34,250 nucleotides of DNA from Oceanicaulis sp. GTDB taxonomy: Bacteria; Pseudomonadota; Alphaproteobacteria; Caulobacterales; Maricaulaceae. Location: assembly GCA_028280165.1 (NCBI GenBank), contig JANQMI010000177.1, positions 1-34,250 on the forward strand. The letters run 5' to 3'. The notes beneath the pieces are model-generated. The model saw only the letters and a list, made by a program, of their open reading frames with translations. It made no database searches and was not told the origin of the DNA. The position numbers and the translations under genes are program-made. This document shows, in pieces, positions 5,160-9,952 of the stretch (within the stretch, counting starts at the first letter, position 1; the number at the start of each line of letters is the position of its first letter).

Positions 5160-5257
5160 TTGGCGCTCTACCTGGGCACTCGCGGGGCTTGCCGCAAGCT
5201 CTAAAGCCCGTCACATACCGCTCTGACGCCGCCGAGCCAACGCGAAAGGACTGCCCA

Positions 5258-6001
5258 ATGTCTGAGATACAGCGTCTAGACCGCGGGGACGGCCACCAAA
5301 TCGCCTATGTGAAACACGCCGGTGAGGGCCCGACCGTGGTCTTTCTGGGCGGCTTTCGCTCCGACATGACGGGCACCAAAGCCATGCATCTCGATGCCTG
5401 GGCGCGGGACGCGGGGCGGTCCTTCCTGCGCTTTGACTATTTTGGCCATGGCCAATCCAGCGGGGACTGGGCGGACGCCACCATCACCCGCTGGCGCGAC
5501 GATACGCTCGCCGCGCTGGACCAGCTCACCGACGGCCCGCTCGTGCTGGTAGGCTCATCCATGGGCGGATGGATGGCGCTTCTGGCCGCGATGGACCGGC
5601 CAGACCGCGTCCAAGCCCTTGTGCTGATCGCCCCTGCAGCGGATTTCACCGAAGCCCTGATGTGGGAGCAATTTCCGTTGCATATTCGCGAAGCCATTGA
5701 CACCGACGGCGTCTGGATGGCCCCCAGCGCTTATGGCGATCCCTATCCGATCACCAAAGCCCTGATCGAAGATGGCCGCCAATGGTCGATCCTGAACGCG
5801 CCCATCCCGGTAACCTGCCCCATCGAAATTATCCAGGGTTATGCCGATCCGGATGTGCCCTGGACCCATGCGATGCGCACGGTGGATGCGTTGGATAGTC
5901 CGGACATCACGATCACGCTGACCAAATCCGGCGATCACCGGTTATCGGGCGAGGCGGATCTGGCGCGGTTGGTGGAGGCGGTGGAGCGGGTCTCGCGCTA
6001 G
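5258..6001 (+). CDS. Alpha/beta hydrolase
   Basis: FLRFDYFGHGQSSGDW...LVLVGSSMGGWMALLAA (nucleophile elbow GSSMGG)...GYADPDVPW...SGDHRLS. RBS GAAAGGA upstream of ATG 5258. Confidence 0.9.
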   Translation: MSEIQRLDRGDGHQIAYVKHAGEGPTVVFLGGFRSDMTGTKAMHLDAWARDAGRSFLRFDYFGHGQSSGDWADATITRWRDDTLAALDQLTDGPLVLVGSSMGGWMALLAAMDRPDRVQALVLIAPAADFTEALMWEQFPLHIREAIDTDGVWMAPSAYGDPYPITKALIEDGRQWSILNAPIPVTCPIEIIQGYADPDVPWTHAMRTVDALDSPDITITLTKSGDHRLSGEADLARLVEAVERVSR

Positions 6002-6202
6002 CCCGCAGGGACGCCCGCTCGGATTTCAGCGAGGTGATTGCGCTCGGCCTCCAATCCCGCTCCGCCCCGCTGACCTGCAGGGCCTTTAAGCGTGACCACC
6101 GTCATGTCGGGGTGAGCCCTCCCTCAACACCCCGCCTGCGACCTTCAGCTCTGGCCTCGATTGGACGGATGGCGCGACACCACCCCGCCACGGACGGCGA
6201 TC

Positions 6203-6222
6203 ACGAATGAGCGTTCACTCCA
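6203..6222. repeat. Palindrome copy 1 (acgaatgagc|gttcactcca)
   Basis: Divergent copy of GTGAGTGAGC|GCTCACTCAC. Confidence 0.7.
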
Positions 6223-6294
6223 GTGCCGTTGGCGCGGGCGTCAGCACCGGCCCAGTTTTAACGCGCTGCCATAACAGGTCCCAGACCCATCCGG

Positions 6295-6314
6295 GTGAGT
6301 GAGCGTTCACTCAT
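6295..6314. repeat. Palindrome copy 2 (gtgagtgagc|gttcactcat)
   Basis: Two mismatches to the 20-mer. Confidence 0.85.
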
Positions 6315-6640
6315 AAGAGCCTTGTCGTGAGCCTTTTGGGAGCCTTGAGCTCTGTGCCTTGGGGCGGTGTGGAATTGGGGTTGGGCGTGCGGGACTAGGG
6401 TTCAAGGCTCAAGTTTGGGGCCCGAGACTAGGGTTCGAGGTTCAATGTTCAAGGCTCGGTGCCCAACCCGATTGGTGTCGTCCTGCGCTCTGGAGCGGGC
6501 GTGTTCAGCCCTCACTTGGGGCCTCGACGCAGGCGTGTGGCGGTCACTCAACGCGGCATGTTGCCAGTGCGGCAACGCCCACACCCAAACGGGCACAGGC
6601 CGAACGAGACACAGTTCGAACGAGACACAGGCCGACCTTT

Positions 6641-6660
6641 GTGAGTGAGCGCTCACTCAC
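6641..6660. repeat. Palindrome copy 3 (gtgagtgagc|gctcactcac), perfect
   Basis: Exact 20-bp self-reverse-complement. Confidence 0.95.
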
Positions 6661-6914
6661 CCTGCTTTGCGTGGGGCCTTCTTAGAACCTTGAGCTCTGT
6701 GCTCCGGGCGTGCGGGAATGGAGTCATGGCCGAAGGCTGAGTGTTTGGGGCTCAGGTCTCAATCCCAGTGGTCCTTCACCAAGCGCTCTGTGATCGACGC
6801 TTCAGCCCTCCCCTGGAGCCTTCTCGAAGGCGGGTTGCGGTCACTCAAGGCGGCATAGGGCGAGGCCGGCAAAATAGCGGGCGTGGGGCCAAAACAGGGC
6901 GCAGCTCGACCTTG

Positions 6915-6934
6915 GTGGGTGAGCGCTCACTCAT
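6915..6934. repeat. Palindrome copy 4 (gtgggtgagc|gctcactcat)
   Basis: Two mismatches to the 20-mer. Confidence 0.9.
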
Positions 6935-7227
6935 GAAAGCCTTGCTGAGAGCTTTTCCGAGCTTTGAGGTCTGCGCCTTGGGGTGTGGGGCGGGAAATGC
7001 GGCTTCAGGGTTCAAGGCTCAAGTCTTGAGCGCAGTCTACCGTTCAGGGTTGAGAGTTCAGGGCTTGACCTTCAATCCCAATGGGTCTCGCCAAGCGCTC
7101 TGGCGCGCGCGCTCAGCCCCCCGTGGACCCCCACGCAGGGGGCAAAGCCATTTAAGGATGCATATTGCCAATGCGGCAACGCCCACATCCAAACGGGCAC
7201 GGCCCGAATGGGTACAGACCGACCTTT

Positions 7228-7247
7228 GTGAGTGAGCGCTCACTTAC
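7228..7247. repeat. Palindrome copy 5 (gtgagtgagc|gctcacttac)
   Basis: One mismatch to the 20-mer. Confidence 0.92.
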
Positions 7248-7445
7248 TTTGAGGTTGGCTCCTATCCGTTCGCGGATGAAAACTAGAGCGTTGAGCGGGG
7301 AGGCTGGATCGCCGGAGGGGTGTTTTTTGGCGCTTAAGGCTCTGTGTTTGGAGCTTTGGTTTCAGAGCGCCCGTCCCAGGTCGAAGTGGCTCAGCGCACG
7401 AGGCTTGGCGACCTGCCGACCGCCTCCAGCAATCCATGCAAGCCA

Positions 7446-7465
7446 GTGAGTGAACGCTCACTCAC
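7446..7465. repeat. Palindrome copy 6 (gtgagtgaac|gctcactcac)
   Basis: One mismatch to the 20-mer. Confidence 0.92.
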
Positions 7466-7550
7466 TTAGGCGGGTCTCTGCTTCTGCCGACGTGACGATC
7501 GGGGTGCGAGGTTTAGGGATCAGGCCGGGGTGGCCGGAGGTCTGGGCCCT

Positions 7551-7718
7551 GAGCTTCAGGCGTAGAGCTTCAGGCCCGGAGTTCAAGCCCAGATCTCAAG
7601 ACCCATAGTTCGAGGCTTGGCGTTCATGGCCAGGAGCTCTAGGCCTGGCGTTCTGGATCGGGGGCTCAGGGTTCGGCGTCCACAACTCAGGGCTCTGCCG
7701 CCCCCGTTCAACGTCAAA
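7551..7718. repeat. Degenerate 14-bp tandem repeat, about 12 units without indels
   Basis: Consecutive 14-mers: gagcttcaggcgta/gagcttcaggcccg/gagttcaagcccag/atctcaagacccat/agttcgaggcttgg/cgttcatggccagg/agctctaggcctgg/cgttctggatcggg/ggctcagggttcgg/cgtccacaactcag/ggctctgccgcccc/cgttcaacgtcaaa. Confidence 0.75.
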
Positions 7719-7798
7719 GGGCTTATACCGCGCCGTCTCTAACCCCGCATAAGCCTGGTCCTAATGACGCCGCCAGATCCCGTCGCAGACGACCATTC

Positions 7799-7818
7799 GT
7801 GAGTGAGCGCTCACTCAT
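7799..7818. repeat. Palindrome copy 7 (gtgagtgagc|gctcactcat)
   Basis: One mismatch to the 20-mer. Confidence 0.92.
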
Positions 7819-7930
7819 GGATGGGGCGGGCACCTAGTCTTGCGCGGACGAATCCTCGCGCGCGGCGCGACTTGGGGGCGGCGGTGGAGCGGGTTTGGCG
7901 TTCGCGGGCGAAGCTGTATCGGCGTGGAAC

Positions 7931-8464
7931 CTAGGCCTTGGCCTTGACGGCCTTGCGCCAGGCGCGAAGGTCAGCGCCATGATTGAGCAGCGCGGCCATC
8001 GCCTCTTGAACGCGTTTGGTTCGCGTCGGGGCTGTTTTGGCGGCGCGCACATGTTGGGCCAGCATCCGCTTTTTGCCCGGTGTCAGCGCCTCCCAAAGCC
8101 GGGTTGCGGCGTCTGACGCACGGACCGCATCGTTCAGCTCAACAGGCACATCGACATGGTCCTGATCTGCAATGCGAAAGCGCATTTCGACCGGGTCGCC
8201 GAGCTTGGCTCCGCTGCCCTTTAGAACGGCGGGTGCGACGATCACATAGTGCCGGCCGTCACCTGTGGGCATGAATGCATTCTCCACCGGCATGTCGGCA
8301 ATCTCCCCCTCAACCCGCAAGCGCGGATGTTTCGCCAGGGGCAGCCGCGCGCGGATGTCATCGGGGACCATGATCACGGTGTACCCAATGACCCGGTCTT
8401 TCCCGACGCCAAATCTCTCAAGTTCGGCTTCAAAAACGTAAGGGAAATATGGTGTGCCGGTCAT
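7931..8464 (-). CDS. DUF1905 / YdeI-OmpD-associated family protein
   Basis: YVFEAELERFG...VIMVPDDIRARLP...PRLRVEGEIADMPVENAFMPTGDGRHYVIV...LNDAVRASDAATRLWEALTPGKKRMLAQHVRAAKTAPTRTKRVQEAMAAL. Confidence 0.75.
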   Translation of the reverse strand: MTGTPYFPYVFEAELERFGVGKDRVIGYTVIMVPDDIRARLPLAKHPRLRVEGEIADMPVENAFMPTGDGRHYVIVAPAVLKGSGAKLGDPVEMRFRIADQDHVDVPVELNDAVRASDAATRLWEALTPGKKRMLAQHVRAAKTAPTRTKRVQEAMAALLNHGADLRAWRKAVKAKA

Positions 8465-8487
8465 GCGGCCTCCAGCGGCCCCTCACC

Positions 8488-9300
8488 CTAGTCGCGCAAC
8501 TCCAGCGTCACCGGGGCATGGTCGGACGGTTTTTCCCAGCTTCTGGTGTAGTCCCACACGCGGAAGGTGTCGCGGCCGCCAGTGAGAGCGGCGCTTTCGA
8601 GGGTGGGCGAGACCCAGATATGGTCCAGCCGCCGCCCTCGATTGGATTTCTTCCAGTCCCGGTTTCGATAGCTCCACCAGGTGAAGATTTTTTCCGGCTC
8701 CTCGATCAGCGCGCGGGCGACATCGATGAACTGGCCTGCATCGCGCACCCGGTCCAGGGCTTCGGTTTCCACCGGCGTGTGGGAGACGACTTTCAGCAAT
8801 TGCTTGTGGGACCACACATCATGTTCGCGTGGCGCGATATTCAGATCGCCGACGAGTACAATGTCTGAGCCGTCCTTGGCCCGGCTGGCGGCATAGCCTT
8901 CCAGCGTGTCCAGGAAGTCCAGCTTGTGTTTAAAGCGCGGATTGGTGTCGGGGTCCGGCTCATCGCCGCCGGCGGGGATGTAGAAATTCTGGATCTCTAC
9001 GCCATCGATCTTCACACGCTGAAACCGGGCCTCACCGCGCGGGCAGAGCGCGTCGTTTTCCAGCTCTTCGAGGGGCAGTTTCGATGCGATCGCGACACCA
9101 TGCATGCCCTTCTGACCCACAATAGCGATATGGGGATAGCCCATCTCTTCGAACGCCGCGCGGGGGAATTGATCGGGCAGGCATTTAATCTCCTGCAAGC
9201 AGATCACATCGGGATTGGCGTCTTCAGCCCACTGGGCCACCAGCGGATGGCGCATGCGGATCGAGTTGATATTCCAAGTCGCAATGGTGAGCGCGCCCAT
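8488..9300 (-). CDS. xth: Exodeoxyribonuclease III
   Basis: MGALTIATWNINSIRMRHPLV...PDVICLQEIKC...VLVGDLNIAPREHDVW...RRLDHIWVSPTLE...SDHAPVTLEL. Start set at internal Met 9300; the ORF-track extension to 9414 is not domain-like. Confidence 0.93.
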   Translation of the reverse strand: MGALTIATWNINSIRMRHPLVAQWAEDANPDVICLQEIKCLPDQFPRAAFEEMGYPHIAIVGQKGMHGVAIASKLPLEELENDALCPRGEARFQRVKIDGVEIQNFYIPAGGDEPDPDTNPRFKHKLDFLDTLEGYAASRAKDGSDIVLVGDLNIAPREHDVWSHKQLLKVVSHTPVETEALDRVRDAGQFIDVARALIEEPEKIFTWWSYRNRDWKKSNRGRRLDHIWVSPTLESAALTGGRDTFRVWDYTRSWEKPSDHAPVTLELRD

Positions 9301-9319
9301 GCTGGTCCGTCTCTCTGAT

Positions 9320-9952
9320 CTAAAGGATGTTGTAGGTTGAGCCCGCCACGCCCACCGGCCAGCGCCCGCGCACATAAAGCCGCCAGCGAGCCAGGAAAGG
9401 ATGGGTCGGCTCATCGTCCTCGGCTTCGGCCAGGATCACCAGGGCCGCCCCATTGGCCGCTTGGACCAAACCCCCGGCCGCGGCGTTGACCACCGTTTCG
9501 TCATAGACGTCATCCAGCGCGGCGCTGGCCTCGGCAGCGTCACGGGCGGCATCTCCGATCTTCGACGCGATCAGAGCCAGGGCCGCTTCAAGGGCCTGTT
9601 GATCCAGCCGCTCCAGCACCTGGTCCACCAGGCCGGTGCGCAGCATCTCTTCGGCTTCCCAGGCCATGGGATCGCGATCGAGGGTTTCAGCCGCCGCGAC
9701 CGCGTCTGACCAGTCGGCCAGCGAGGCCGCATCGGCGTCCGGAAAGCCCAGCCCGTCCAGATAGGCGCGCGCCAGCGCCTGCTCGCGGGGGTCGAGCGGT
9801 TCGCCCAGGCGGGAGAAATAGGCGGGGTCATTGATCGACTCGGCAAACGCCTTCGCTTTGTAAAGCAAAGGAATTTCGTCGAGTAACCGCGCGATCTCGT
9901 CTTCGGTGCCGTCCAGGCCCCCTGACGCCTCTGGATTCTGGTAGAAAGTCAT
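9320..9952 (-). CDS. Hypothetical protein
   Basis: Plausible start at MTFYQNPEASGG (9952). The upstream part of the ORF (to 10231) covers the hairpin-rich intergenic region and looks non-coding. Confidence 0.65.
   Translation of the reverse strand: MTFYQNPEASGGLDGTEDEIARLLDEIPLLYKAKAFAESINDPAYFSRLGEPLDPREQALARAYLDGLGFPDADAASLADWSDAVAAAETLDRDPMAWEAEEMLRTGLVDQVLERLDQQALEAALALIASKIGDAARDAAEASAALDDVYDETVVNAAAGGLVQAANGAALVILAEAEDDEPTHPFLARWRLYVRGRWPVGVAGSTYNIL

Follow-up and report, generated by a model that had tools for sequence, protein, structure and literature searches.

A probable decayed heptanucleotide minisatellite among putative TetR operators in a lineage-specific insertion of Oceanicaulis sp.

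The locus and its insertion

The window, i.e. the whole stretch of 34,250 nucleotides analysed here, is contig C48 of a 3.08 Mb Oceanicaulis genome, which is assembled in 239 contigs and is 90% complete. The locus has an alpha/beta hydrolase gene as its left neighbour (5189..6001, plus strand), the protein of which has its best named relatives in Oceanicaulis and other Maricaulaceae. Its right neighbour is an endonuclease/exonuclease/phosphatase family gene (8488..9414, minus strand). In the three nearest congeners (L063-L065) these two convergent genes abut at the orthologous locus, with matches ending 9 to 18 bp apart. In this genome they are separated by 2.5 kb, made up of a repeat array and a YdeI/OmdA-DUF1905 family gene (7931..8464, minus strand), both of which are absent from the congeners' locus. 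The array together with the ydeI-like gene is an insertion specific to this lineage (6002..8487). Bases like CTAGCCCGCA are present at both insertion junctions, and the array is closed by a decayed copy (82%) of the 3' end of the hydrolase gene (5969-6002), located at 7872..7905 on the plus strand. No strain or relative carrying the C48 array locus was found; the array is restricted to one genome, and a DNA search of plasmids and phages gave no match. No other congener has a YdeI/OmdA-like gene, and one of the 136 other family genomes searched does. This gene was perhaps acquired together with the array.

Putative operator palindromes of the array

The array (6296-7817) consists of five direct-repeat units of 346, 274, 313, 218 and 353 bp, each opened by the palindrome TGAGTGARCGYTCACTCA. 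These 18-bp putative TetR operators are located at 6296..6313 (unit 1), 6642..6659 (unit 2), 6916..6933 (unit 3), 7229..7246 (unit 4) and 7447..7464 (unit 5), and a sixth closes unit 5 at 7800..7817. A degenerate operator-like palindrome with 3 half-site mismatches lies at 6204..6221. The units are 65-78% alike in gapped alignment, i.e. they differ by 22-35%. The six operators have a mean pairwise identity of 0.926, while that of their flanks is 0.28-0.47; at the operator edges, a few bases suffice for identity to fall from 0.93 to about 0.3. The conserved element within the locus is the 18-bp putative operator and not the 14-mers described below, and the row of operators seems to be the part kept by selection.

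At up to 2 mismatches TGAGTGARCGYTCACTCA has 13 sites in this genome, six on C48, three on C89, three on C85 and one on C226, and its reversed control has none. In viral contigs only two isolated single sites were found. No sigma-70-like promoter was found in the region by a scan for the E. coli type.

The palindrome and its putative regulator in the genus

On contig C85 three palindromes closely precede a gene that encodes a TetR_N domain and lies between two phospholipid acyltransferase-like genes. Of the 15 genomes of the genus, 13 have an ortholog of this tetR gene; the palindrome (at most 3 mismatches in 20) is present in the same 13 and in neither of the other two. Two or three copies per genome lie upstream of tetR in these 13, mostly 52-60 bp apart, with more in G010. 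The complete congeners G011 and G012 have only two sites each, both at tetR. In two other genera, too, the palindrome is near the tetR ortholog, at a distance of about 90-110 bp. Because gene and palindrome occur in the same 13 genomes, TGAGTGARCGYTCACTCA can be taken with near certainty as the operator of an autoregulator of the TetR family whose gene lies elsewhere in the genome, and we infer that the TetR protein binds it. Like autoregulatory operator pairs of TetR-family repressors, the palindrome adjoins its cognate tetR, in two or three copies genus-wide, and is conserved across species. In contrast, the C48 array has no adjoining tetR; it occupies a site between convergent genes on a different contig. 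In G010 (L045 5296-6279) about eight or nine operator palindromes lie directly upstream of tetR, partly in 71-bp tandem units.

A second array was found on C89 (L005 5999-6533), near another alpha/beta hydrolase gene, with three operators 290 and 227 bp apart. It is likewise absent from the matching place in three congeners. The C89 spacers are unrelated to those of C48 and lack heptamers; since the two arrays share nothing else, the operator is their common element. Operators away from tetR and between convergent genes also occur in G009 and G004, and both G004 and this genome have an operator immediately 3' of alr (entries L046 6489; L047 5440-5645; L006 488).

The 14-bp minisatellite of unit 5

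The first-pass annotation, made from this sequence alone, had described an indel-free 14-bp minisatellite in the last unit. The periodicity exceeds that of all 1000 dinucleotide shuffles. In 7551-7718 the lag-14 identity of 0.519 (expectation 0.256, z 7.35) exceeds that of every other lag from 1 to 40; lag 28 (z 5.8) and lag 27 (z 4.1) come next. The weaker signal noted back to about 7509 was also recovered, with a lag-14 identity of 0.490 (z 7.16) in 7509-7718. In sliding windows over the 34-kb window, the largest excess identity of periods 5-20 is that of period 14 at 7501-7531.

The best tandem alignment by the wrap-around method contains about 12 copies (7534..7706, plus strand), which are 72% identical to GTTCAAGGCCCGGA with one 1-nt deletion. 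This consensus, which was read off unit 5 itself, scored 129 over 7534-7682 (shuffle maximum 30), in an alignment of 108 matches and 41 mismatches that contains the single 1-nt deletion. GTTCAAGGCTCAAG, a 14-mer drawn from units 1 and 3 and hence independent of unit 5, scored 54 in unit 5 (shuffle maximum 25). Like a bacterial minisatellite or cryptic tandem repeat, unit 5 thus has head-to-tail copies above chance. TRF at score 30 reported nothing in 7509-7718, because the copies are too diverged; hence the repeat is cryptic.

The copies are mostly in phase as had been claimed, but they are not free of indels: the deletion gives a single phase shift of -1 at the copy starting at 7581, which fits the lag-27 signal. 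The 14-bp period is real, but it is not the only one. In 7594-7718 lag 28 (0.546) is stronger than lag 14 (0.477), and this 28-bp higher-order period suggests that pairs of 14-mers were duplicated again. A coding explanation of the periodicity was rejected, in agreement with the first-pass annotation, because the signal is intergenic and neither 7 nor 14 is divisible by 3.

Periodic domains in all five units

The array as a whole has a base period of 7 bp, which was found in all five units. In every unit a period of 7, 14 or 21 rises above background in the 100-250 bp just 3' of the palindrome, and the remainder of the unit is mostly without periodicity above background. The periodic domains, all given on the plus strand, are located at 6340..6466 in unit 1 (7 bp), 6681..6773 in unit 2 (7 bp, the weakest), 6959..7068 in unit 3 (7/14 bp), 7247..7368 in unit 4 (7/14/21 bp) and 7471..7720 in unit 5 (7/14 bp). 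The domain of unit 3 contains the three 14-mers that had been noted at 7038-7079. The kinship of the last and third units was thus borne out, but not its confinement to these two. The 7-mer consensuses were derived separately for each unit; in units 1, 2 and 5 they are GGGCTCR in rotated or slightly varied form, and in units 3 and 4 they resemble it less. Of the loci read, only C48 has the heptamers. The cyanobacterial STRR is another heptanucleotide tandem repeat comparable to that of unit 5.

Origin of the 14-mers

The locus is best explained, with a probability of about 0.6, as a decayed heptanucleotide slippage minisatellite that is a passenger spacer in a natural cluster of TetR operators. 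A 7-bp word (about RGGYTCR) of an ancestral unit would have been multiplied by replication slippage, giving the 7-, 14- and 28-bp periods; duplication of units would have spread the heptamer spacer through the array, and point mutation would have eroded the heptamers while the operators stayed intact. Slippage is what we infer as the origin of the 14-mers, and the 28-bp period of the last unit fits an origin by repeated duplication. The gap lengths between aligned units were left out of this support, since they are not cleanly multiples of 7.

Among short repeats, those of seven nucleotides are reported to be the commonest category in most of the surveyed genomes, and polymerase slippage has been proposed as their cause (PMC4679880). 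Like the bacterial TAACTGA direct repeats (PMC4679880), the repeat described here has a 7-bp base, is intergenic, runs head to tail and is attributed to slippage. It differs from them in that its copies are about 60-72% identical to the consensus, are found at one locus between operators and form 14- and 28-bp higher orders. The minisatellite is thus of an already known kind, and the natural operator cluster can be classed as a variant form of the operator arrays and decoys described before. On their own the 14-mers are an unremarkable, if clear, case of cryptic simple sequence attributable to slippage, and the surrounding array is the more important feature.

Some observations do not sit easily with the slippage origin. 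Chance slippage alone does not account for the position of the periodic domain after the operator in each of the five units, which descent from one ancestral unit would explain. The C89 array has operators without heptamers. An array that is confined to one lineage and has units 22-35% different also needs fast divergence, or arrival in an already diverged state.

The first-pass annotation had instead proposed that spacing is more constrained than sequence; a protein or filament would bind the 14-mers in register, so that spacing is selected while sequence drifts. This idea is favoured by a strong lag-14 signal in which about 12 copies show a single visible indel, and by the same place of every unit's periodic domain relative to the operator. 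However, one indel per roughly 41-65 substitutions is near the neutral expectation. Ratios of 0.03-0.05 and of 0.1 indels per substitution were assumed from general knowledge of bacterial mutation. For 41-65 substitutions they give 1-3 and 4-6.5 expected visible indels, respectively, and a probability of at most one indel of 0.16-0.66 and 0.01-0.08, before any correction for the choice of the cleanest stretch, one noticed for looking in phase and in which indels of whole units are invisible. In addition, neither 7 nor 14 bp makes a whole number of helical turns, the other units drift among periods 7, 14 and 21 with more indels, and neither the C89 array nor the congeners have the periodic domain. 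The three nearest congeners lack the array at the corresponding locus and thus provide no orthologous array in which conserved spacing could be demonstrated. A constrained spacing of the 14-mers is not supported, and an element held in phase by selection is improbable.

Possible roles of the array

An array of operators with no evident promoter may act as a local sink that lowers free repressor. Titration of the TetR autorepressor is the most likely role of the array, although we put it forward tentatively. If the array is a repressor sink, the 14-mers would have no sequence-specific role. Engineered tetO arrays titrate repressor as decoy arrays or DNA sponges (PMC7686491). Like these synthetic arrays (PMC7686491), the C48 array has multiple TetR-family operators away from an evident promoter, with spacers between them; unlike them it is natural and has only six sites at a spacing of 218-353 bp, and titration by it is a proposal. 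A full-text literature search for natural tandem TetR operators returned nothing relevant, which is weak evidence of their absence. A broader proposal, which we regard as doubtful, is that lineage-specific TetR operator arrays (six sites in 1.5 kb between convergent genes plus the three-site array) would serve as a repressor sink or a chromosomal landmark, with slippage-prone heptamer spacers changing the spacing of the array. If true, the clusters of one repressor's conserved operators outside its promoter, set among two unrelated kinds of spacer in the same genome, would parallel engineered DNA sponges in nature, and such arrays would let the evolution of operator copy number be studied.

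The array may also have no role and be decaying duplicated DNA, operators included, in which recent duplication or gene conversion around the palindromes keeps them alike. Its restriction to one genome and the 65-78% likeness of its units, which is consistent with free drift, would agree with this. Yet the sharp fall of identity at the operator edges, the match of the operator variants to those at real tetR promoters and a second array with the operator alone in common make it rather unlikely. An RNA, a terminator or an SlmA-like reading is less likely than titration. Each unit could encode a TetR-repressed structured small RNA with heptamers as hairpin arms, since unit 1 has inverted heptamers (GAGCCTTGAGCTC versus GGGTTCAAGGCTC) and folding z-scores are -3.66 for unit 1 and -3.16 for part of unit 5; but the folding of units 2 and 4 does not surpass that of shuffles, the RNAalifold covariation term of units 1-3 is unfavourable (+3.14), there is no Rfam match and the E. 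coli-type promoter scan found nothing. A conserved RNA structure was rejected on the lack of covariation support and the inconsistent folding among units, and transcription as such a small RNA has a slim chance. A terminator role was rejected as well; the one terminator-like match is fewer than in shuffles.

Least probable of all is that the regulator is a TetR protein like SlmA or RefZ, which acts on non-promoter sites in the cell cycle or nucleoid, the array being a strong loading site. SlmA, a TetR-family nucleoid occlusion factor, likewise binds palindromes with GTGAG/CTCAC halves, as in its site GTGAGTACTCAC (PMC3116907), and non-promoter operators lie between convergent genes here, in G009 and in G004. 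The regulator has weak SlmA and RefZ family scores. However, these are 32.4 bits for the SlmA model NF007015 (cut-off 120) and 33 bits for the RefZ model (cut-off 180), the MtrR, ScbR and FadR models score equally well or better, and the regulator adjoins acyltransferase genes. The operator described here is also longer than the SlmA site, is located at tetR promoters and is few per genome; in place of many chromosome-wide sites, the complete congeners have only the pair at tetR.

Dispersed TTCAAGGCTCTGG matches in the genome were rejected, as they belong to an unrelated REP-like family. A REP-like repeat of the form CTTCGTCATCCCCGCG...TTCAAGGCTCTGGGTTCCCGC...GGGAATGACGAAG is dispersed in this genome (L154-L166), and similar sequence adjoins the C89 array.
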